IMG/VR virus record: IMGVR_UViG_3300032236_000884
Coordinates: 1 to 51,048 of that record
From: a virus
DNA: 51,048 bases
Reading direction: 5' to 3' (one strand)
Both the position numbers and the translations under genes were made by a program. Below are positions 545-31,400 of the stretch, one piece after another. Position 1 is the first letter of the stretch; each line of letters opens with the position of its first letter. A model generated the notes under the pieces. The model was not told the origin of the DNA. It searched no databases and saw nothing but the letters and a program-made list of their open reading frames with translations.

Positions 545-620
545 TGGCTGGCAGGGTGGGATTCGAACCCACATTTAACTGATTAACAGTCAGCCCTCAT
601 TACCTATCGAGCACCTGCCA
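545..620 (-). tRNA. tRNA-Asn (GUU)
   Basis: A complete cloverleaf on the minus strand. The acceptor stem pairs TGGCAGG (620-614) with CCTGCCA (555-549). The D-arm is CTC...GAG, the anticodon loop is CTGTTAA with anticodon GTT at 587-585, and the T-arm is GTGGG-TTCGAAT-CCCAC. The discriminator is G548 and CCA is encoded (547-545), unlike the tRNA-like elements near 7.4 kb. It could support translation of the Asn-rich late structural proteins. Confidence 0.95.
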
Positions 621-4373: not shown

Positions 4374-4787
4374 TTAGGTTTCCAGAAACTCCTTAGCAAT
4401 TGCTGATGCAATTCTTCCATCATACAGATTAGTATGATTAGTCTTTAGATAATTCATGATCTGAGCAAGACTTTCTTTTGGAGTAATATTAGAAATGATT
4501 TCCTTTAATTCATCTACTGAAAGTAATTTAGGAAGATATCGATTATATAATTCAAGCTCATTACTCAATTCTTCATTCATTCCCTTGATCTTAGTAATTT
4601 CTTCGACACCAAGTTTGAATTTCTTGATTACAGAAATGACTTCATCTTCAGTTGGATCACCGTTTCTTTTGGTCTTTCCGACCATACTACATTCAGAATA
4701 AAGAGTTACTAGAAGAGTAAGAAGAGATTGATTCTTTTCTCTTCTAGCATGATCTAAATCTGATTTAATTTCAGATAGAGTATTCAT
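4374..4787 (-). CDS. GatB/YqeY-domain protein, 137 aa
   Basis: A helical protein with the YqeY layout: MNTLSEIKSDLDHARREKNQSLLTLLVTLYSE, a middle region with DEVISVIKKFKLGVEE, then ELELYNRYLPKLLSVDELKEII and a C-terminal segment ending GRIASAIAKEFLE. In bacteria the domain occurs alone (YqeY) and as the tail of GatB, where it helps bind tRNA for transamidation. The start overlaps the stop of the methyltransferase gene by one base (TAATG). Its presence a few genes from a tRNA-Asn and tRNA-like RNAs is suggestive of an RNA-related role, but that is inference. Confidence 0.75.
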   Translation of the reverse strand: MNTLSEIKSDLDHARREKNQSLLTLLVTLYSECSMVGKTKRNGDPTEDEVISVIKKFKLGVEEITKIKGMNEELSNELELYNRYLPKLLSVDELKEIISNITPKESLAQIMNYLKTNHTNLYDGRIASAIAKEFLET

Positions 4788-5738: not shown

Positions 5739-5790
5739 GGGGTGTATGTTTTTAGAGTTGCAGTCTAATTTTGGTTGCAGAAAACACCCC
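5739..5790 (-). ncRNA. Short Y RNA-like structured element (member 4)
   Basis: Between the Ro60-like gene and the next gene, the minus strand forms a 7-bp terminal stem GGGGTGT (5790-5784) with ACACCCC (5745-5739). The 5' strand is followed by TTTCT and GCAA, and the 3' strand is preceded by TAAAAACAT. This is the same terminal layout as the three elements upstream of the Ro60-like gene. There is no tRNA-like insert. No T-run follows, so it is not an ordinary terminator on this strand. Length 52 bases. Confidence 0.5.
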
Positions 5791-5798
5791 AATATTAC

Positions 5799-7232
5799 TT
5801 AAAAATCGTACTTAGGATTCATAATTGCCTTTAGCATGATTCCTTCAGGGGTGAAAGAATCTGAATCAGCACTAAGTACAGCACCTAAAATCGCAGGACT
5901 AAATCCAGATACAAGAGCCACACCAGATGCATCATGACGTACTGGAACATTATCCTTAGCGTTTATATTCCAGAATACTAAAGCAGGACATTCGTAACCT
6001 GCATTTTCATACTTACGCCTAATCATTTGGTAGGCTGAGTCATCAAACCTAGTGCATTGATTAAATTGCATATCTGAAAGTATCAGTAGCATATTAGGCA
6101 TTTCTTCACGCGGAACATTACCATTAATTGCTGTGGTTAGAATCAAATCAAGAGCAGAATGAAGATCAGTACTCATCGCCCACTTAGACTTGATCATTTG
6201 GTTACAACGATCAACAATATTACCTTGTAGATGTAAAATTTCTGGATGAGTAGAGAAAGTAACAAACAAATCCTTAAATTTACCCTTATTCTTTTCTGAT
6301 AGGTACAATCCTAATGAAACAGCCACATCAAGACAAGTCACAGACGCATTAGTTCCAGCAGGAGTACACATAGATCCAGATACATCAACCAAAGGAAGAA
6401 TATTTGCATCACCAACGAAGTTCTCAAGAGCATTCCATTGATTTACAATCAAATCAAGTTCAGTCTTTTTGTAATTTGTTGAATAACCATACGGACTAAT
6501 TATACCCTTCAGTACATCATAAGGATATACAGCACCAGCATTCACCTTAACTGACGCATCACCAGCATTCAGTTTATTTACATAATCAGTATATCCAACC
6601 GGATCATGCTTGTTGAACGCTTTCTTATAACGAGCAGAAGCTACAGATGGAACATGGCTATAATTGATATCAGTCCACGCATTACTACACATCTTAGTTT
6701 CTACCACAGTAGTATTAGTAGCCAAAAACTTACGATATTGACGAGGAGTCATATTCCAATAAGTCATGATTTCATTAGCAATGGCAGTTTTAGCTGACTT
6801 TTCTCTTGGAATCCATTTTGAGGCTAACTGATTACCAGAAAGAATAGCATCAAAAAGAACATCATATGCCTTGTGCTTATACTTTTGAGTACTGAAAACT
6901 AGGTAATCATCAAAACGACCAATTTCAGCAATTTTATCAAAAATACGATCTAGGATCTCAGGAGCATTTGACTCAAGATATACAAGAATATCACGGAAAA
7001 GCTTACGCTCACCAGCACCACCACGAACGTCACGAGTCCATAGAGCAATTCGAGTAGCAAGTTCTTTATCTTGCACAAAGGCAGAAGTGAATTCAGGAAT
7101 GATATTCTTCCCTCTTGAGGCCCCGATTTTAAAGAAGAGATTGGTTAGAGAATCACCAGAAGACTTGAACGCCTTCATTCCATTTTCAGTTCTGGTAATA
7201 CGATTATCTACAGCATTTGCAAAAGTTGTCAT
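5799..7232 (-). CDS. Ro60-like TROVE/DUF2828-type vWA-domain RNA-binding protein, 477 aa
   Basis: The N-terminal two thirds form a helical-repeat region with the signatures TRTENGMKAF, FFKIGASRGK, WTRDVRGGAGERKLFRDIL, IGRFDDYLVF, MTPRQYRKFLA and YSHVPSVASARYKKAF. These are known to me from phage proteins called TROVE-domain or DUF2828. The C-terminal third is a von Willebrand A domain with the MIDAS motif DVSGSM and a later LILSDMQF strand. This ring-plus-vWA design is that of Ro60/Rsr, which binds Y RNAs and damaged non-coding RNA and in bacteria works with nucleases or sits near RNA-repair genes. Three tandem structured RNAs lie directly upstream on the same strand, two of them tRNA mimics, and a related one directly downstream. 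GAGG precedes the ATG. Assignment to the family is firm; Y RNA binding is inference. Confidence 0.82.
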   Translation of the reverse strand: MTTFANAVDNRITRTENGMKAFKSSGDSLTNLFFKIGASRGKNIIPEFTSAFVQDKELATRIALWTRDVRGGAGERKLFRDILVYLESNAPEILDRIFDKIAEIGRFDDYLVFSTQKYKHKAYDVLFDAILSGNQLASKWIPREKSAKTAIANEIMTYWNMTPRQYRKFLATNTTVVETKMCSNAWTDINYSHVPSVASARYKKAFNKHDPVGYTDYVNKLNAGDASVKVNAGAVYPYDVLKGIISPYGYSTNYKKTELDLIVNQWNALENFVGDANILPLVDVSGSMCTPAGTNASVTCLDVAVSLGLYLSEKNKGKFKDLFVTFSTHPEILHLQGNIVDRCNQMIKSKWAMSTDLHSALDLILTTAINGNVPREEMPNMLLILSDMQFNQCTRFDDSAYQMIRRKYENAGYECPALVFWNINAKDNVPVRHDASGVALVSGFSPAILGAVLSADSDSFTPEGIMLKAIMNPKYDF

Positions 7233-7314
7233 AATAATACCTCACGGTTTGCATTGTTTTAGTCAAATTTATAGTTTGATTATTAATGTTTGCTGGAAGC
7301 AAACCAATTTTAGC

Positions 7315-7440
7315 TGGATGTATTTTTATATGGACCGCTGTCTTACCATTCGACTTCTCTGTAAGAAATATACAGAGGATGGAATCGAACCACCTATTCG
7401 CGGTTTGTATTTTATAAAATTAAATTGCTGAAAACATCCA
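7315..7440 (-). ncRNA. YrlA-like tRNA-mimic RNA, second long element (member 3)
   Basis: The terminal stem TGGATGT (7440-7434) pairs with ACATCCA (7321-7315), with TTTCA-GCAA after the 5' strand and TATAAAAAT before the 3' strand. A second helix is TTTTATA (7419-7413) with TATAAAA (7330-7324). Inside is a permuted tRNA body. The 3' half comes first: stem ACCGC (7404-7400) and T-arm GGTGG-TTCGATT-CCATC (7394-7378). The acceptor-like stem CTCTGTA (7377-7371) pairs perfectly with TACAGAG (7363-7357), closed by a 7-base loop. Then comes a D-arm with GG (7347-7346), and GCGGT (7338-7334) pairs perfectly with ACCGC. No simple joining of the halves gives a loop with U33, and no CCA is encoded, which favours a tRNA mimic over a tRNA gene. 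Confidence 0.78.
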
Positions 7441-7448
7441 AATAATAC

Positions 7449-7588
7449 AGGGTTCGTTTTTTCGTCGCTCTACCAGACTGAGCTACACCCCCCGAAAAGA
7501 TATCAAGAAAGAATTCTTTTCGGGGAATGATTGGATTTGAACCAATGACCAACGGCTTAAAATGCTATAGTTTTGCAGAATGAACCCT
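7449..7588 (-). ncRNA. YrlA-like tRNA-mimic RNA, first long element (member 2)
   Basis: The terminal stem AGGGTTC (7588-7582) pairs with GAACCCT (7455-7449), with ATTCT-GCAA after the 5' strand and ACGAAAAAAC before the 3' strand. Inside, the T-arm ATTGG-TTCAAAT-CCAAT (7546-7530) precedes the D-arm GCTC-AGTCTGGTA-GAGC (7483-7467). The acceptor-like helix runs from CATTCCC (7529-7523) against GGGGGTG (7492-7486) and continues for 15 bp in all, closed by a 14-base loop. CGT (7554-7552) pairs with ACG (7465-7463). Joining the D half after ACG (7463) to the T half at GC (7565) would give a 5-bp anticodon stem and loop ATTTTAA, that is Lys(UUU). No CCA is encoded and base 73 would be C. Confidence 0.78.
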
Positions 7589-7597
7589 AATTTTAAC

Positions 7598-7650
7598 AGG
7601 AAGACTTTTTCTACTTACCAAAAGTACGTTGAATTTGCGGTAATCTTCCT
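7598..7650 (-). ncRNA. Short Y RNA-like structured element (member 1)
   Basis: The terminal stem AGGAAGA (7650-7644) pairs with TCTTCCT (7604-7598). The 5' strand continues with TTACC, which can pair with GGTAA (7619-7615), then GCAA. The 3' strand is preceded by GTAGAAAAAG. This is the same terminal module as the two tRNA-mimic elements that follow 9 and 8 bases apart, but without the tRNA-like insert. GTTGAA (7661-7656) could also pair with TTCAAC (7633-7628) to make a pseudoknot. On the plus strand the same repeat is followed by a T-run and could alternatively act as a terminator. Confidence 0.5.
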
Positions 7651-7670
7651 TTTTTCTTCAACTTAAAGCT

Positions 7671-7699
7671 ATGATATCCTATTTTTTACAGGTTGTAAA
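7671..7699 (-). promoter_or_regulatory. sigma70-type promoter for the RNA array and Ro60-like gene
   Basis: On the minus strand TTTACA (7699-7694), a 17-base spacer and TATCAT (7676-7671) match five of six bases in each sigma70 box. Transcription would start near 7664, about 14 bases before the first structured element, and could run through all three RNAs into the Ro60-like gene. Confidence 0.55.
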
Positions 7700-22869: not shown

Positions 22870-23832
22870 ATGGCAAATCAACCAGTTACACCACAATCAC
22901 TGCCAACTGACGCTCTCAATTCAAATCCTTATTCGATAACCAGTTTGGTATATCCTCAGGATTTGACCGGATCAGTTGGTCATTATGTTAATTTTTATAT
23001 TAACGTTAACAGAAGCAGCCAATTTTATAATTCAACAAGTGGATTTAGTTATGGTCAAGGAATTAAACCATGGAGCGTTGTTACTAATCCAGCATATGGT
23101 ACTGGTAATGGAGGAAATGTTATTTTTGGTACTTCCGGTAATGGAACTGGATTTTCTGTTGGTTCTGTAACTAATCAAAGAATTGCTCAAAGTATTTCAT
23201 TGTATATTCCAGATTCCATGTCGTATGGACAAAATATAAAATGGGAAAATTCATCATTATATGAAATGGGCGGTTCTCTGATTGATACTTTGAAGTCAGC
23301 AGCCGACTTAGCTACAAAAGGAAAAAACTTTAATACTGTTAAAACTACATCCGCATTTAAAGCGATAATGTCTGGTCTTCCTGAAACTTTTGCTAGTCTC
23401 GGTGCTACTGCCGACAAAATAATGGGAGCAACTGGATGGGCATTTAATCCTCAGCTATTAGTTCTTTTCCGTGGTATTGATTTCAGAACATTTCAATATG
23501 ACTTTTATTTCTCTCCAAGAAATACAGCAGAAGCATCAACAGTAAGAGAAATTGTTAAAGCATTTAGATTCCATTCCCATCCAGAAGTAAATACTGCGGC
23601 TGGCATATTCTATGGTGCTCCATCTACATTTGATATTGAGTTTATGCATAATGGAAGTATAAATGATAAGATTCAACAAGTGTCTACCTGTGCTTTAGTT
23701 GGATATGATGTTGATTATGCTCCTTATGGATGGTCAACTTATGATGATGGAATGCCAATTCAAACCAGATTAACATTAAGATTTCAAGAAATGGAAATCA
23801 TTGATAAAACTAAAATTCAACAGGGGTATTAA
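22870..23832 (+). CDS. 48: Baseplate tail tube cap gp48, 320 aa
   Basis: The N-terminal residues form an extended arm (PQSLPTDALNSNPYSITSLVYPQDL). The core has LYIPDSMSYGQNIKWENSSLYEMGG. The C-terminal tube-like domain has NPQLLVLFRGIDFRTFQYDFYFSPRNTAEASTVREIVKAFRFHSHPE, FDIEFMHNG and LVGYDVDYAPYGWSTYDDGMPIQTRLTLRFQEMEII. These are standard for gp48/gp54-type proteins on which the tail tube starts. Size is close to T4 gp48 (364 aa) and gp54 (320 aa); gp48 is favoured by resemblance to aquatic T4-like homologues. Stop and gp53 start overlap (TAATG). Confidence 0.8.
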   Translation: MANQPVTPQSLPTDALNSNPYSITSLVYPQDLTGSVGHYVNFYINVNRSSQFYNSTSGFSYGQGIKPWSVVTNPAYGTGNGGNVIFGTSGNGTGFSVGSVTNQRIAQSISLYIPDSMSYGQNIKWENSSLYEMGGSLIDTLKSAADLATKGKNFNTVKTTSAFKAIMSGLPETFASLGATADKIMGATGWAFNPQLLVLFRGIDFRTFQYDFYFSPRNTAEASTVREIVKAFRFHSHPEVNTAAGIFYGAPSTFDIEFMHNGSINDKIQQVSTCALVGYDVDYAPYGWSTYDDGMPIQTRLTLRFQEMEIIDKTKIQQGY

Positions 23833-24464
23833 TGTCATTTTTTTCTTTATTTCCTGTTATATTGAATCCTGATGGTAAATTATTAACTGATATAACTGTC
23901 AGGACAAAAATTAGAGATTCTTGGTTAGATAATGAAAGATTATATTACATTTATAATTATCAAGATCATGATCGCCCAGAAGATATCGCTCATAAGATGT
24001 ATGGTGATCAAGGACTTGGATGGATTATTGTATATTCCAATAACATTTTAGATCCAAATTTTGATTTTCCTTTATCTACATCTCAATTTGAATCTTATTT
24101 AAATGACAAATATCGCTCTCAAGGAGAAAGTGTGGGAAAAACTGGAGTAGAATATGCATTATCTACAGTTGATCCTGTGTATGGATACCAAAAAGAAGTT
24201 TCATATGGATATGAATATAATACAGTAGTCGAATATTTTCCAGTAGATCAAACCTCATATGAGAATATAGTTCCTATTTTTACTACTGTAAATGATCCAG
24301 TTACAAATAAACCTATTCAATACTCTGTTAATAAAAGATATCCATTAGTAACAATATATGATATTGAGTTTCAAAATAATGAAAAGAAAAGACCAATAAA
24401 AATTCTAAAGCAACAATATGTTAATCAAGCTAAAACTGAATTGAGGAATCTTCTTAAACAATGA
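23832..24464 (+). CDS. 53: Baseplate wedge protein gp53, 210 aa
   Basis: Pattern of gp53: SFFSLFPVI, DITVRTKIRDSWLDNERLYYIYNYQDHDRPEDIAHKMYGDQGLGWIIVYSNNILDPNFDFPLSTSQFESYL, which contains a LysM-like element, then a beta-rich C-terminal half with RYPLVTIYDIEFQNNEKKRPIKIL. T4 gp53 is 196 aa and links wedges to each other around the hub. It overlaps both neighbours by one and four bases. Confidence 0.88.
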   Translation: MSFFSLFPVILNPDGKLLTDITVRTKIRDSWLDNERLYYIYNYQDHDRPEDIAHKMYGDQGLGWIIVYSNNILDPNFDFPLSTSQFESYLNDKYRSQGESVGKTGVEYALSTVDPVYGYQKEVSYGYEYNTVVEYFPVDQTSYENIVPIFTTVNDPVTNKPIQYSVNKRYPLVTIYDIEFQNNEKKRPIKILKQQYVNQAKTELRNLLKQ

Positions 24465-25930
24465 GCGTTTCACAAAGAAATGATTATACTTCTTTAACTG
24501 TCACTGGTTTAGAAGTTAATAGATGTTTGATTACATCAGCTACAGCTAGTATTGATTTCAAAAATGCAGTAGCTGAATTTGCGTATTTTGAAGATTTGTT
24601 TACTAATACTGTTTCTGGGATGCTATTGATAAGTGATTCTTCTGCATTTCCTAATATTTTATCTTGGTGCGGCGAAGAAAGACTTGAATTGGAGATTAAT
24701 AAACCTGGATCTAATCAGCCTCCTTTTTCCGGAACATTCCGAATTTATAATATATCAAGAAGGCATATAACCAAAGATAATAATGAAAATTATCTGATAA
24801 ATTTTTGTTCAGAAGAATTAGTCATATCGGAAAAGACAAGAATATCAAAAACTTATAAAAACACAAAGATATCAGATATTGTTAAAGATATTGCTTTTAA
24901 TTATTTGAAAATAAAGCCAACAGATTTTCCTGATACTAATATTGAAGAAACATTTGGTAATGCTACTATAACTATTCCTAATATGAAGCCGTTGGAAGCC
25001 ATCAATTGGTTATGTACTATGGCTATTGTAGGTGATACTAAATTTGGAAACCATTCTGGGCCAGATGGGGGTGCATCCTATTTGTTCTGGAGAAATAAAG
25101 ATGGATATCATTTTAGATCACTGTTATCTATTTTTAATACCGTTAATCCACATAGTAGTCCATCTACATCTTCATACAGACATCCTTTATCTGATCCGAA
25201 ATATCAATATGGATATTGGTATGGTTTAAAAAATACAGATGTACCATCAGATTTTCCATATGATCCATATTCACAGATTATTTCATATGAAATATTAAAT
25301 ACATATGATGCACTAGAATCTCAGCAAAGAGGAATGTTTTCTAATAGAACAATTTCATTAGATTTCATTACAAGAAAATATACTGTAAGTGATTTTGATT
25401 ATAATACATATTTTAATGACTTTTTAAAACAAAAAGTTGATTTATATAAAACTTTTAATACATTGCCCGTAGTTAGTAATGCAGTTGATCGTTTAGGTAA
25501 AACAGCAAATCAATATCCTACAGGAAACATTAGAATATACCCATCAACGACTTTACAAGCTGAAAATGAATTTGTTAAACAGAATTCTCCAAATGTGTAT
25601 CCTAATTATGTAGAAAATACTGTGCCATATCGTTTAGCCCAATTATCTCTAATTGGAATTAATAGAATTAAATTGGCAATTCCTGGTGATCCTTATATTA
25701 CTGTTGGAAAATTAGTTGATGTATTTCTTCCACAGACAACTATTGATCCAAAAACCGGAAATAAGTTGAAAGATAGATTTTTGAGTGGTACATATTTGGT
25801 TACTTGTGTTCGTCATGCTCTGGATCAAGAAAACGAATTTAAAACTGTTATTGAAGTAGTTAAAGATGCTTATAGTGAAGTTGAATCTGTAAATGGACTT
25901 GCTTCATTCCCCGGACCATTAAACATTTAA
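24461..25930 (+). CDS. Baseplate hub protein, gp27-like, 489 aa
   Basis: N-terminal tube-like domain (VTGLEVNRCLITSATASIDFKNAVAEFAYFEDLFTNTVSGMLLISDSSAFPN), then FCSEELVISEKTRISKTYKNTKISDIVKDIAFNYLKIKP, ITIPNMKPLEAINWLCTMAI and a YLFWRNKDGYHFRSL strand. C-terminal LIGINRIKLAIPGDPYITVGKLVDVFLP and GTYLVTCVRHALDQENEFKTVIEVVKDAY. The layout is that of VgrG/gp44/gp27 hub proteins. I assign it as central hub protein; whether it corresponds to T4 gp27 alone or also substitutes part of gp5 is open. No lysozyme domain is present. Confidence 0.7.
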   Translation: MSVSQRNDYTSLTVTGLEVNRCLITSATASIDFKNAVAEFAYFEDLFTNTVSGMLLISDSSAFPNILSWCGEERLELEINKPGSNQPPFSGTFRIYNISRRHITKDNNENYLINFCSEELVISEKTRISKTYKNTKISDIVKDIAFNYLKIKPTDFPDTNIEETFGNATITIPNMKPLEAINWLCTMAIVGDTKFGNHSGPDGGASYLFWRNKDGYHFRSLLSIFNTVNPHSSPSTSSYRHPLSDPKYQYGYWYGLKNTDVPSDFPYDPYSQIISYEILNTYDALESQQRGMFSNRTISLDFITRKYTVSDFDYNTYFNDFLKQKVDLYKTFNTLPVVSNAVDRLGKTANQYPTGNIRIYPSTTLQAENEFVKQNSPNVYPNYVENTVPYRLAQLSLIGINRIKLAIPGDPYITVGKLVDVFLPQTTIDPKTGNKLKDRFLSGTYLVTCVRHALDQENEFKTVIEVVKDAYSEVESVNGLASFPGPLNI

Positions 25931-25940
25931 TAAATAGAAG

Positions 25941-26327
25941 ATGGCATATCAGTATTTTTCAGATCTAGATTTAAGATTTAACATTCATCCTGTAACTAAG
26001 GATTTGGTATTGTCTTCAGATGAACAGGCTATCACAAGATCGGTTAAAAATCTTGTGTTAACTAAACATTATGAAAGATTGATGCAATCTAATATAGGTT
26101 CTAATGTCAGTGGTATGTTATTTGAAATGATAACACCATTGGTCGCTAATGCTGTCCAAAAAGAAATTTATGATGTTATAACTGCATTCGAACCTAGAGC
26201 GATTAATATTAGTGTTTTTGTTGAAGCTTTACCCGAACAAAATGCAATGAACGCAACTATTCAATATTATATGGAAAACTCACCAATTCCAGTTATTGTA
26301 GACATATTACTAGAAAGGATAAGATAA
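25941..26327 (+). CDS. 25: Baseplate wedge protein gp25, 128 aa
   Basis: Classic gp25/GPW family: FSDLDLRFNIHPVTKDLVLSSDEQAITRSVKNLVLTKHYERLMQSNIGSNVSGMLFE, PLVANAVQKEIYDVITAFEPRAINISV and a C-terminal PIPVIVDILLERIR. T4 gp25 is 132 aa and helps trigger sheath contraction as part of the inner baseplate. An AATAAATA sequence precedes it. gp6 follows after one base. Confidence 0.93.
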   Translation: MAYQYFSDLDLRFNIHPVTKDLVLSSDEQAITRSVKNLVLTKHYERLMQSNIGSNVSGMLFEMITPLVANAVQKEIYDVITAFEPRAINISVFVEALPEQNAMNATIQYYMENSPIPVIVDILLERIR

Positions 26328-26328
26328 C

Positions 26329-28410
26329 ATGGCATCTTCCAATAACAATTTGCAACTAGCAGGAACAGATTTTGATCAGATAAAAAGTAACTTGATTACT
26401 TTTCTTCAGAGTCAAAATGTATTAACTGATGCTAATTATACCGGGAGTGCTCTTTCTGTACTATTAGATATTCTTGCGTATAACACTTATTATAATGCAA
26501 ATTATTTAAACCTGATTGGAAGTGAATTATTTCTTGATAGTGCTACAAAAAGAAGTTCTGTAGTTTCTAAAGCAAAAGAATTGGGTTATGTCCCAAAATC
26601 AGCTACATCTTCGCAGGCAGTTTTAGATGTATCTGTTATAGGACTTCAGTCTACATTTTTCACTTTACCAAAGTATTCAAGATTTATTTCTGGACAAATT
26701 AATAATAAAACTTATACTTTTGTAACTAATAAAGAATATTCGGTTTCTGTAGATAATAATGGAGATGGTATTATTTCTGGAGTTACTGTATACGAAGGCG
26801 AGCCAGTAACTTATAATTTTGTTTATATTTATTCATCAAATCCGAAATCTACATTTAATATTCCAGATCCTAGAATTGATATAAATTCTTTAATTGTTTC
26901 GGTTCAAGAATCAAGCACTTCATCTAATTTTGATATTTACAATAAAGCGGAACAATATGTTAATTTAAATGGTGACAGTTTAGTATATTTTATACAAGAA
27001 TCATCAGATGGAACTTATGACATATATTTTGGAGATGATATTTTAGGTAAAGCATTAGTAGATGGTAACATTGTTTCTGTATCTTATATCTCTACATCAG
27101 GTTCAGTAGCAAACAGTATTCAAAGATTCCATCTTGTAACATTACCATCATCATCTTTCACATCATTAACTGCTAACACTACCCAGATATCTTTCGGTGG
27201 TGGTGATAAAGAAACGATTGATTCTATAAAATTTCAAGCACCTAAATCATATGCATCACAAAATAGAGCAGTAACAAAAGATGACTATATTAATTTGATA
27301 CAAAGAAATAGTCTTGGTATACAATTTGATGCAGTTAATGTTTGGGGAGGAGAAGAAAATATTCCTCCTGTTTACGGGCAAGTATTTGTTTGTTTGAAAC
27401 CGTCTGGTGCTTATACTTTAACACAAACACAAAAAACTAAATTAATACAAGACGTAATATCTCCAATATCAGTAATGACAGTACAACCTTCTATTGTTGA
27501 TCCTGATTATACTTATATCAAAATTGATGTAAATTTGTTTTATAATCAATCTAAAACAGTATTATCTCCAAATGATATGAAACAATTGGTGTCTAATACT
27601 ATAACTAATTTTGCTAGTTCTACTTTAAACACATTCAATTCAACTTTTTCTTCTAGTGAATTGACCAATGCTATTCAAAATACTGATAAATCAATAATAG
27701 CGAATGAAGTTAGTATTCAGTTACAGAAAAAGATTTATCCTAATTTGACTACTCCAACTTCATATACTTTCTATTATGGTGTTCCTTTAGAAAAAGGAAT
27801 GTTCCAAAGTGGAGTATCAAGTTCTCCTGCGGTTCAGTTCAGAGATCCTACGAATCTAGCTAACATTATTGATGGGATTTATATTGAAGAAGTTCCTTCT
27901 TCTACTGGAGGAGTAGCTTCAATATCTTTAATCAATAGTGGATATAGTTATCAATATAAACCTACAGTAACTATATTAGGTGATGGGAATGGAGCATCAG
28001 CTGAGGCTATATTAAATACAAATGGAACAATTAGATCTATTAATGTACTGAGTTCTGGAAATAATTATACTAGTGCTATAGTTTCAATAACACCTGCTTC
28101 TGGTGATGTTACTGGTACAGGAGCAGCTGCAATAGCAACATTAGAAGGGCAATACGGAACTTTACGCACGTATTATAACAATGATAAACAAGTAAAAACA
28201 ATATTTGATCCTTCAGTCGGAACTATAGATTATGTTAATGGGATTGTTACCCTTAATTCTTTTGGTCCTATAGAAGTAGATAATCCACTAGGTCAATTAA
28301 CAATGACAGTGAATCCTACCACAACTATTATTTCATCATCAAAAAATAGAATAATAACAGTAGATCCATTTGATCCTAATGCAATTACTGTTAAAGTTAC
28401 AGCGAAATAA
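26329..28410 (+). CDS. 6: Baseplate wedge protein gp6, 693 aa
   Basis: N-terminal gp6 signature DFDQIKSNLITFLQSQNV, YTGSALSVLLDILAYNTYYNANYLNLIGSELFLDSATKRSSVVSKAKELGYVPKSATSSQA, and a baseplate-J-type middle with FGGGDKETIDSIKFQAPKSYASQNRAVTKDDYINLI and VFVCLKPSGAYTLT. T4 gp6 (660 aa) forms the wedge ring. The C-terminal part carries an insertion-like module at about residues 525-610 (SLINSGYSYQYKPTVTILGDGNGASAEA...) that recurs in gp7, gp8 and the DUF4815 protein. Confidence 0.92.
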   Translation: MASSNNNLQLAGTDFDQIKSNLITFLQSQNVLTDANYTGSALSVLLDILAYNTYYNANYLNLIGSELFLDSATKRSSVVSKAKELGYVPKSATSSQAVLDVSVIGLQSTFFTLPKYSRFISGQINNKTYTFVTNKEYSVSVDNNGDGIISGVTVYEGEPVTYNFVYIYSSNPKSTFNIPDPRIDINSLIVSVQESSTSSNFDIYNKAEQYVNLNGDSLVYFIQESSDGTYDIYFGDDILGKALVDGNIVSVSYISTSGSVANSIQRFHLVTLPSSSFTSLTANTTQISFGGGDKETIDSIKFQAPKSYASQNRAVTKDDYINLIQRNSLGIQFDAVNVWGGEENIPPVYGQVFVCLKPSGAYTLTQTQKTKLIQDVISPISVMTVQPSIVDPDYTYIKIDVNLFYNQSKTVLSPNDMKQLVSNTITNFASSTLNTFNSTFSSSELTNAIQNTDKSIIANEVSIQLQKKIYPNLTTPTSYTFYYGVPLEKGMFQSGVSSSPAVQFRDPTNLANIIDGIYIEEVPSSTGGVASISLINSGYSYQYKPTVTILGDGNGASAEAILNTNGTIRSINVLSSGNNYTSAIVSITPASGDVTGTGAAAIATLEGQYGTLRTYYNNDKQVKTIFDPSVGTIDYVNGIVTLNSFGPIEVDNPLGQLTMTVNPTTTIISSSKNRIITVDPFDPNAITVKVTAK

Positions 28411-28412
28411 AA

Positions 28413-31400
28413 ATGACAGAAATTACATTAAAACCGTCATTACTGATATCTAGTCAACTTCCAAGTTATATAACCGATGATGCTTCATACAGCAAATTCG
28501 TTTCATTTATGGAAGCGTATTATGAGTGGATGGAACAAGATGAAAATGTAATAAATTCTTCACGAAATTTGTTAAATTATCAAGATATTGATAAAACTAC
28601 AAATGAATTTTTGCAATATTTCGTTAATGAATTTCTTCCCTATTTTCCAGAAGAAACTTTAGTTGATCAAACGAAATTAATAAAATTCGCTAAAGAATTA
28701 TATCAAACAAAAGGAACGCTTGCTTCATATAAGTTTCTATTTAGAGTTTTATATGATTCTGATTTTGATGTATTCTACACGAAAGATGCAGTTTTAAGAG
28801 CTTCAGCAGGAAAATGGTATGTTGCCAAAAGCTTAAGGTTATCAACAGATGATTTACGATTTTTAAATATACCAAATTATAGGATTTTTGGTGAAACTAC
28901 AAAATCCATAGCAACTATAGAAAATTCTGTTTTATCTGGCACAAAGATAGAAGTATTTGTTTCTAATATAGAAAGATTATTTCAATCTGGAGAATATGTT
29001 CGTATAGTTGATAATAATAATCAAGATGTAATAATAAATGGCTCTAATCTACGAGCAAAAATAGTAGGACAGATAAGCCAATTAAATATAGATCCTAATA
29101 ATAGAGGATCATTTTATAAAAAAGGAGATCCGGTATCAATTTATGGAGGATTAAATTCGCCTACAGGTATTGGAGCAACAGCGACTGTCGGTCAGACAAC
29201 TGCTGGGGGTGTAAAAAGTGTTTCTGTAATTAATGGTGGATTTGGTTATAGAGAAGATCCAAATACTGTCATAGCATTTTCTAATCTTAATGCAGGAGCT
29301 AAAACTCCAATAGCTCACGTTGCATCTTTGTCTCCTACGATCTTACCTATTATTTCGATTATTAATGGGGGAGTTGGTTATCAAAATAATGATCCAATTT
29401 ATACCATAATCAATTCAAATGAATATGATTTTGGGTATGTTTCTTCAGTTGACGCAAATGGAAAAATTATACAAGTTGGCTATAATAATGGAGTTCCTGC
29501 AAATTCTGTTATAGGGGTTACTGCGAATGTCAAATCATCAAACGTTTTAGCATATGGAGCAATAATAAGCGTAGCTAATTCGGCAGGAAGTGCTATATCA
29601 AATGCTACCTATATTCCAACTAATTCGATAGGATTTTCAAAGAATGTTTCCATCGGAAATAACACGTATGGATTTTTTACCGCAAATCCTAATGCCAATG
29701 CCAATACATCTTTAGCTAACAGTTTATCGTTTATATCTTTTTCCACTTATCCTATATCATCAATACTAGTTACAGATCAAGGAGGTGGGATTACTCAAGA
29801 ACCAGCTGTTACTGCATTATCAACATATGCAACAGACGATTCACAGTATCCTGCGTTATTGAGTTCTCTTGGAATATTAGGACCAGTACAGATTATAGAT
29901 GGTGGTATTGGATATAAGGTTAATGATTCGATAGTTTTTTCTGGTGGTTCTGGATATGGTGCATATGCAAATGTTTCAGCCATAGATGCAAATGGAAAAA
30001 TAACATCAATATCATATATACAAGGAAATCGACCATATTCATTAGGAGGGATGGGATATGGATCATCTTTACCTGCGTTAAGTGTAAATTCTTCAAACAC
30101 ATATGCACATGGAGCATCAATAGTAGTTACTGGAACGTTAGGAACTGGAGCATTATTATCAGCTACAACAGATAGAGCTGGTTCTATAACTTCTATTAAT
30201 ATTGAAAACTATGGAGAAGATTATATTTCGACTCCAAATGTTTCTATTAAAGTTCAAGATATTGTAGTTTCGAATATAACTATATCGAATCTTCCAGAAA
30301 AAGGAGATTTTATTTATCAAGGTATATCGGCTAATACTACTACATATCAATCTTATGTAGATTCAGTTTCATTATTGATACCTGACGCAGATCCAACTAA
30401 ATCTCTTTACAATTTGAGATTATATGAGTATACGGCAATACCAAATCCGAATCTACCATTAAAAATAGATAGAAATTCATTATCTATAAAAATTTATAAT
30501 GCAATACCTATTGGGTTTGAAACTACCTATCCCTTTAACTATAATACAAATATTCAAGGGTTTAATCAATATGGAGATGGTTCTGCAAAAGCTTATGCTA
30601 AATTTTTAAATGGTCTAGTAATTGGCCAAGGTGAGTATTTGAATACAGAAGGACAACCAAGTTCATTCGATGTACTACAAAGCACCAAATATAATAATTA
30701 CACATACAAAATAACAGTACAGAAAGAAATTTCAAAATACAGAGATATTCTTTTGAATTTGCTCCATCCTTCCGGAACTAATTTAATCGGAAGATATTCT
30801 ATGGAATCAAAAAATGAATTTGATTTTCATAGTCAAGAAGCGTTATTTACTGGACATACTTTATCATATTATACTGGTTATACTGGAAGTTCCGTTAATA
30901 TGGTTAGTGACTTTAATATTAAAAGTAACAATATACTAACTTTTTATAATCTTGCTGGAGCTAATCTATCCAACATTATTTCAAATACTAATATTATAGA
31001 AGTAACACCAATTAATGGTCCTTATGTAAAATGTGAAGTAGATTCAGTAAACTATAGTTCTAATACTATAACATTAAGAAATAGCACTTGGTTAACTTAT
31101 GGTAATGTAGCTTATGTTCAAGCTAATTCCGGATCAAATTTAATAAGTATTATATCATTGACAGGATCATATGATATCATGAATGGTGGCAACTATAGCG
31201 ATCCTAAACATCATCTAAAAGATATAGTTTATGCTGGTGATACGTTAATGTTACAAGGGAATTCTACCGTATTTTCTGTTAATGCTGTCGATTATATTAA
31301 TAATACTATTACAGTGTATCCTAATTTGACACAAATATCTAATACAGTGATGACAGTAAAAAGAACATTTGGTCCAACTAATAAAGTTAGAATTTTCGGT

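Follow-up and report, generated by a model that had tools for sequence, protein, structure and literature searches.

The 51-kb IMG/VR virus record IMGVR_UViG_3300032236_000884, whose whole stretch of 51,048 nucleotides is here called the window, carries on its minus strand, between 5.7 and 7.7 kb, a gene for a DUF2828 protein with a predicted Ro60 fold together with five RNA elements, four upstream of the gene and one downstream. Comparison of sequences across virus records shows that such proteins are encoded with a family of same-strand small RNAs sharing a constant module, and that the variable slot between the two halves of the module holds interchangeable tRNA parts. These parts are an anticodon stem-loop, a permuted T-acceptor-D body, or a tRNA in which the module stands for the acceptor stem. 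The gene–RNA system is thus not confined to the phage of the window and is, as judged from its distribution, a very widespread family with more RNA forms. The explanation that we favor, with a confidence a little better than even, is that the locus encodes a phage Ro60–Y RNA-like particle, whose tRNA parts would be displayed as decoys or adaptors in a conflict over tRNA during infection.

The protein gene (positions 5799–7232, minus strand) encodes 477 amino acids that Pfam divides into DUF2828 (E 4e-26) and DUF7788 (E 6e-47), the latter being a von Willebrand factor A (vWA) part with a metal ion-dependent adhesion site (MIDAS), and it is matched by phrog_850, an “RNA-binding protein” family, with E 2e-134. 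The Pfam TROVE family (PF05731) gives no match at E ≤ 1, and because Pfam returns only DUF2828 and DUF7788 we refer to the protein as a Ro60-fold relative and not as a TROVE member. Regarding the PDB, searches by phmmer and hmmsearch found no convincing relative at the sequence level. An AF2 model built from 22 window and IMG/VR sequences (pLDDT 79.9, pTM 0.76) matches the Trove domain of 9kop with Z 19.0 (Foldseek E 8e-8), the Ro60 of Thermus phage phiLo (9l5y) with Z 18.1, Xenopus Ro60 with Z 16.4 and Deinococcus radiodurans Rsr with Z 12.2, and Foldseek returns 2nvo with E 2.5e-7. These Ro60/Rsr matches span 383–407 residues, the whole length of the model, whereas the next unrelated structures are vWA domains, with Z 9.9, that cover the vWA domain only. 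The motif DVSGSM occupies residues 283–288, and the MIDAS residues D283, S285, S287 (DxSxS), T355 and D387 are invariant in the protein alignment. As modeled, the protein has the layout of Ro60/Rsr, namely a helical-repeat ring followed by a C-terminal vWA domain with MIDAS.

All five RNA elements of the window are built from a 7-nt strand, five bases followed by GCAA (usually NTNCNGCAA), an A-rich stretch, and a perfect 7-nt complement of the first strand. Elements 2 (7449–7588, minus strand; stem AGGGTTC/GAACCCT) and 3 (7315–7440, minus strand; stem TGGATGT/ACATCCA) are long and hold tRNA bodies arranged as in the bacterial Y RNA YrlA, that is, T arm, looped acceptor stem, and D arm on a 7-bp terminal stem. 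Element 2 scores 35.8 bits against Rfam YrlA (RF02553; E 1.4e-5 in a cmscan of 2.2 kb); it is the only one of the elements to match and stays under the cut-off of 69 bits. Its folding energy (7588–7449) has a z of −4.7. When the window is compared with two relatives, L001 and L002, the tRNA-bodied elements have different yet fully paired acceptor stems (for element 3, CTCTGTA/TACAGAG in the window and TCCCAAT/ATTGGGA in L001), and the changes in the T arm and in the terminal stem are compensatory. In both elements the terminal stem takes the position of the anticodon arm, which is absent; they are therefore not complete tRNAs, nor can they count as functional circularly permuted tRNA genes, which would need that arm.

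The other three elements are short, and all lie on the minus strand. Element 1 (7598–7650), with stem AGGAAGA/TCTTCCT and motif TTACCGCAA, has AAAAAG ahead of the closing stem strand and GTTA behind it, and the same element is present in L001 and L002. Element 4 (7246–7305), with stem GGTTTGC/GCAAACC and motif TTCCAGCAA, contains a putative anticodon-stem-loop mimic, TCAAA-CTATAAA-TTTGA (7263–7279, minus strand). Element 5 (5739–5790), downstream of the gene and at the same place in L001, has the stem GGGGTGT/ACACCCC, the motif TTTCTGCAA, and a putative mimic with the anticodon GCA, TTAGA-CTGCAAC-TCTAA (5752–5768, minus strand), that has a counterpart in L001. A preliminary description of this DNA had reported a TROVE/DUF2828-type protein of 477 residues with a DVSGSM motif next to complete but permuted tRNA bodies on 7-bp stems. 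The observation of a gene with tRNA-mimic RNAs holds, and on a larger scale than described: DUF2828, the motif and the two permuted bodies stand, the TROVE label, as a matter of sequence, and the completeness of the bodies do not, and the two short elements that had been claimed have become three (7650–7598, 7305–7246 and 5790–5739).

Throughout the family, the constant module consists of a covarying 7-bp stem, NTNCNGCAA on the 5′ side, an A-rich 3′ side and, usually, a CCUGU 3′ end. The element scans of relatives demanded stem pairing, and a separate test of the motif was made without this demand. Within 1.5 kb upstream the 5′ motif was met 93 times, in 67 cases with an exact 7-nt complement at the predicted register; the complement is found in 22, 12 and 4 of 93 when the register is moved towards the motif by 1, 2 and 3 bases, positions that overlap the true stem, in 0–7 of 93 at other shifts, and in 2 of 146 cases on the opposite strand. 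In addition, the DNA pattern TTTAGG N5 TTCAGCAA N30-60 CCTGTTA, which prescribes the motif but no more than three of the seven stem pairs, matches at least 120 IMG/VR stretches, and its scrambled-motif version matches none. The four stem bases that it leaves unconstrained are complementary in 136 of 139 pattern places and come in 24 different sequences. In a gapless alignment of fixed-length element ends, chosen because MAFFT on whole elements misplaced the 3′ stem, double changes occur in all seven stem pairs, the covariation score is 1.04 against 0.24 after shuffling, and GCAA and the G after the stem are invariant. Because the rows of this alignment were picked for perfect pairing, the register and pattern tests are the cleaner ones. 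In 257 Gb of cellular genomes the pattern has two matches, both lacking a complementary stem, and we discard them as chance. We also built a covariance model, R1, whose E-values are rough; on the window, with filters off, its best score is 16.6 bits and it also reports one unrelated site (31,159–31,208), a weak performance that arises because a fixed-loop model loses the long elements.

Nearly all relatives of the gene for which upstream sequence is available (L001–L028) have one to five elements on the strand of the gene. Moreover, elements occur in isolate phages of Aeromonas, Escherichia, Listeria, Mycobacterium, Bacillus, Staphylococcus, Enterococcus and cyanobacteria, with seven of them within about 1.1 kb in an Aeromonas isolate phage. 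The 120 pattern stretches were chosen without regard to the protein; in 43 of them a DUF2828 gene is present, and the strand of the elements agrees with that of the gene in 47 of 47 cases. At the level of whole records, phrog_850 is encoded in 32 of 50 element-bearing records and in 0 of 46 control records, the controls being shorter on average; among records of at least 50 kb, it is encoded in 24 of 26 that bear elements and in none of the controls. In ten isolate genomes, 21 of 21 model matches with E < 0.01 are on the strand of the DUF2828 gene. T4, phiKZ and SPO1 give no R1 match with E < 1. The T4 species 1 and 2 RNAs (rnaC and rnaD) were considered as members and rejected, as rnaD is devoid of the module and T4 of R1 matches.

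Two further explanations can be weighed here. Were the elements cis-acting leaders that regulate the DUF2828 gene, the placement of four of the five window elements in its 5′ leader and of one just behind it would be accounted for; elsewhere, however, elements lie between tRNA genes at distances of kilobases, or follow the gene as in Whirlwind and in a Staphylococcus phage, and we judge this very improbable. We give even less credence to the notion that they are degenerating phage tRNA genes without own function: they do contain tRNA pieces, often stand within tRNA clusters, and for some of their tRNA-like forms the annotation is pseudo or undetermined tRNA, yet a constant module with a covarying stem runs across very distant phages, co-occurs with one protein family, and in the short elements is combined with an anticodon loop. 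The core of the preliminary description, a phage Ro60-like protein with Y RNA-like RNAs, is supported by the predicted fold, by the similarity to YrlA in a covariance-model search, by the covariation of the stems in homologous phages, and by co-occurrence across virus records, with the gene–RNA pairing present in almost all relatives; the loss of an Ro60-like fold or of stem covariation, which it had named as grounds for refutation, was not what we found. As a whole its interpretation is supported in part, the core being a probable reading and the TROVE assignment and the anticodon arm of a complete tRNA falling away.

The evidence for tRNA mimicry comes from the contents of the variable slot. 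In a non-redundant set of 105 short elements, 71 contain a hairpin with a 7-nt loop and a stem of at least four pairs, and among loop sizes only 7 nt is clearly enriched over shuffled sequences. An anticodon-like hairpin is present in 46 of the 105, compared with a shuffle mean of 6.4. When the 71 loops are taken without any loop filter, they show C32 in 43, U33 in 51 (p 3e-14), A37 in 52 and A38 in 47, and A34 appears in only four despite the A-rich sequence (p 2e-13). Bacterial tRNAs avoid A34. Where a loop has U33 together with a purine at position 37, UUU and UGU are the most frequent anticodons.

Regarding the long elements outside the window, a crude sorting by motif matching yields 28 non-redundant elements in YrlA order, 9 in tRNA order with the module replacing the acceptor stem, 18 with a T-arm motif alone, and 18 with neither motif or with a D motif only. 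A further form, in which the module itself is circularly permuted within a tRNA, is found in the phages S13, Ci1, BUCT-ZZ01 and B23 (L038, L035, L034 and L049, respectively) and in L051, L069 and L107. It is a tRNA in normal order, mostly CCA-ending, that has AAAAN, stem, small loop, stem and NTNCNGCA near the anticodon arm. Three loci annotated as “tRNA-OTHER”, pseudo or oversized tRNAs of 110–121 nt (L038 4896–5138, L035 5012–5125 and L049 4866–4975) are, as read from their sequences, tRNAs holding a permuted module of the putative Ro-binding type near the anticodon arm. L051 (11400–11560), L069 and L107 have CCA-ending tRNA-like genes with the module and a weak anticodon-like hairpin with GUA in its loop. 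In Escherichia phage phiSUSP1 (L040 5869–6055), a segment that overlaps a tRNA-Ile gene matches the Rfam permuted tmRNA with 30.8 bits, for a cut-off of 47.

These contents bear on whether the locus encodes an ordinary Ro60–YrlA particle, in which plain Y RNAs control access to the Ro ring and link it to PNPase or another host exonuclease for the decay or maturation of structured RNA, and the tRNA shape only recruits the nuclease. Two window elements are in YrlA order, one of them with the Rfam match, and the fold matches Rsr of D. radiodurans, for which an Rsr–Y RNA–PNPase complex is established in work cited in PMC7790460 and PMC12282133. On the other hand, most elements are 50–65 nt long with an anticodon loop in place of the D/T/acceptor body, the anticodon identity varies, needlessly for a pure nuclease tether, and 3–8 different RNAs are arrayed per phage; we deem an ordinary particle a possible but unlikely account.

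In the explanation that we favor, the protein would bind the constant module, by analogy with the binding of the Y RNA stem by Ro60/Rsr, and would display the variable tRNA part. For tRNA-cutting or tRNA-processing enzymes, chiefly the anticodon nucleases of host defense, the displayed parts would be decoys or adaptors; the tRNAs needed by phage translation would thereby be spared, and damaged tRNA might be handed to phage RNA ligases. The protein may also enter with the genome and act early, since its homologue in Listeria phage CKA15, CKA15_055, was detected in CsCl-purified virions with 20 peptides and 57% coverage (PMC12282133). An RNA ligase of the RtcB, Rnl1 or Rnl2 family is encoded by 14 of 16 DUF2828 phages examined, and elements that do not adjoin the gene often sit among tRNA genes (KVP40, S13, DLP_6 and BF); the ligases and the placement in tRNA clusters fit a tRNA conflict and do not prove it.

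The same ligases could point to a tRNA-repair scaffold, a ribonucleoprotein (RNP) that holds cleaved tRNAs or their halves for phage ligases in the manner of the bacterial rsr-yrl-rtcBA operon. A ligase gene lies two genes upstream of the DUF2828 gene in Serratia phage BF, and RtcB lies 1.3 kb downstream in Listeria phage LMTA-94. However, large phages that lack the system, such as T4, often have ligases too, no ligase is a consistent neighbor, and none was identified among the 21 window proteins put to PHROGs, the window being a fragment; we find a repair scaffold quite improbable. RtcB was dismissed as a general partner, as it occurs in only 2 of the 16 phages.

Several observations weigh against the decoy or adaptor explanation as well. 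Phages of this kind commonly have RNA ligases in any case, T4 has them and no element was found in it, and RtcB in particular is restricted to the two phages just mentioned. Many elements have no recognizable anticodon loop; the mimic loop of element 4 reads AUA, which is unusual, being the sole A34 among 43 loops that combine U33 with a purine 37, and minimum-free-energy folding of this element alone favors a different hairpin. The elements lie 7–15 kb from the gene in several phages and about 200 kb from it in Serratia phage BF, and Lak-A1 has a DUF2828 relative in which we found no element. Finally, the top-transcribed RNA of CKA15 lies upstream of the element array and is not one of the elements.

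Regarding the surroundings of the locus, the window has genes for T4-like baseplate, single-strand DNA-binding and PhoH-like proteins, as identified by comparison of its proteins with PHROGs. A candidate sigma70-type promoter precedes the array (7671–7699, minus strand; TTTACA, 17 nt, TATCAT; 10/12 in a pattern scan); since sigma70-like sites in the region are no commoner than in shuffles, only its position speaks for it. A tRNA-Asn (GTT) gene (545–620, minus strand) lies on the strand of the array, about 5 kb downstream of it, and a gene at 4374–4787 matches a phrog named “tRNA amidotransferase”.

More than 680 sequenced phage records carry the protein, among them phages of E. coli, Salmonella, Listeria, Staphylococcus, Vibrio and Mycobacterium, and in phage records it is mostly annotated as hypothetical or “RNA-binding”. 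With a partner RNA family that has anticodon-loop mimics, this DUF2828 protein gains a testable function; the family also adds a possible strategy against tRNA nucleases, and it offers Ro60 biology simple phage models that grow on laboratory strains. We found no description of the module, the anticodon mimics, the other topologies or the wide phage spread in the literature that was covered, which excludes Chen et al. 2014.

Among known systems, bacterial Ro60 (Rsr)–YrlA is alike in the Ro60 fold with vWA/MIDAS, in RNAs encoded beside the protein gene in several copies, and in a terminal stem that carries a permuted T-acceptor-D tRNA body. It differs in that the phage protein is DUF2828 and not Pfam TROVE, the phage RNAs stay under the YrlA cut-off, and there is no rtcBA operon; moreover, most phage RNAs are of 50–65 nt with an anticodon loop, share the NTNCNGCAA module, and occur in further topologies. 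One proposal for the bacterial rsr-yrl-rtcBA operon is that YrlA competitively inhibits an anticodon nuclease (PMC7790460). Ro-like genes with Y RNAs were already known from mycobacteriophages (Chen et al. 2014, as cited in PMC12282133), and these systems likewise pair a phage Ro-like protein with YrlA-like RNA. Whirlwind gp55 belongs to the same family as the window protein, and Whirlwind has both a YrlA match and the short module.

The Rsr-like protein of Listeria phage CKA15 (gene at 23,695–25,215) is also of this family, and the array is conserved nearby: the three elements directly upstream of the gene in LMTA-94, to which CKA15 is closely related, are kept in CKA15 at 96.5% identity. The authors of the CKA15 study suggest phage Y RNAs near CKA15_055, and their candidates are other, highly transcribed RNAs, for which no structure is given (PMC12282133). 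The most transcribed region is a noncoding RNA of about 490 nt at 26,236–26,727 (PMC12282133), which lacks the module (L319 3237–3728; L043 about 2487–2978). Coordinates rule out that the element array, at 25,206–25,664, is this RNA.

Besides YrlA, the short elements repeatedly match only one Rfam family, the Dictyostelium Class I RNA (RF01414). Full-length matches (1–56) reach 23–30 bits in L039, L040 and L043, element 4 of the window (7304–7245) matches weakly with 18.8 bits, and the best phage-element match, from whole records, is 31.9 bits, below the cut-off of 41.5; the control virus records searched alongside have no match. One T4 site outside the elements scores 24.3 bits and lacks the module, so lone matches near 24 bits can be chance. 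Class I RNAs are about 60 nt long, with a covarying 6-bp stem and a 3′ CUGU; an 11-nt motif, in which T3, C6, C9, A10 and A11 are near-invariant, adjoins the 5′ stem strand, and the RNAs bind Rnp1A and have not been found outside dictyostelids (PMC7919456). The likeness to the phage elements thus includes the length, the covarying terminal stem, the multigene organization, the 3′ CUGU, and a conserved motif (CCUUACAGCAA) directly behind the 5′ stem strand, whereas Class I RNAs are eukaryotic, have a DUSE promoter, and have the RRM protein Rnp1A as known partner. The shared architecture, as seen in sequence, may reflect common descent or convergence towards a binding site of the Ro60 type. Tentatively, and as a broader proposal that we regard as unlikely but worth stating, DUF2828 proteins and module RNAs could make up an ancient, separate class of RNP alongside TROVE–Y RNA, displaying exchangeable tRNA parts; phages would keep it as a decoy library against anticodon nucleases, and Class I RNAs would belong to the same class and bind a Ro60-like protein. 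The phage elements would be the first relatives of Dictyostelium Class I RNAs in both sequence and structure.

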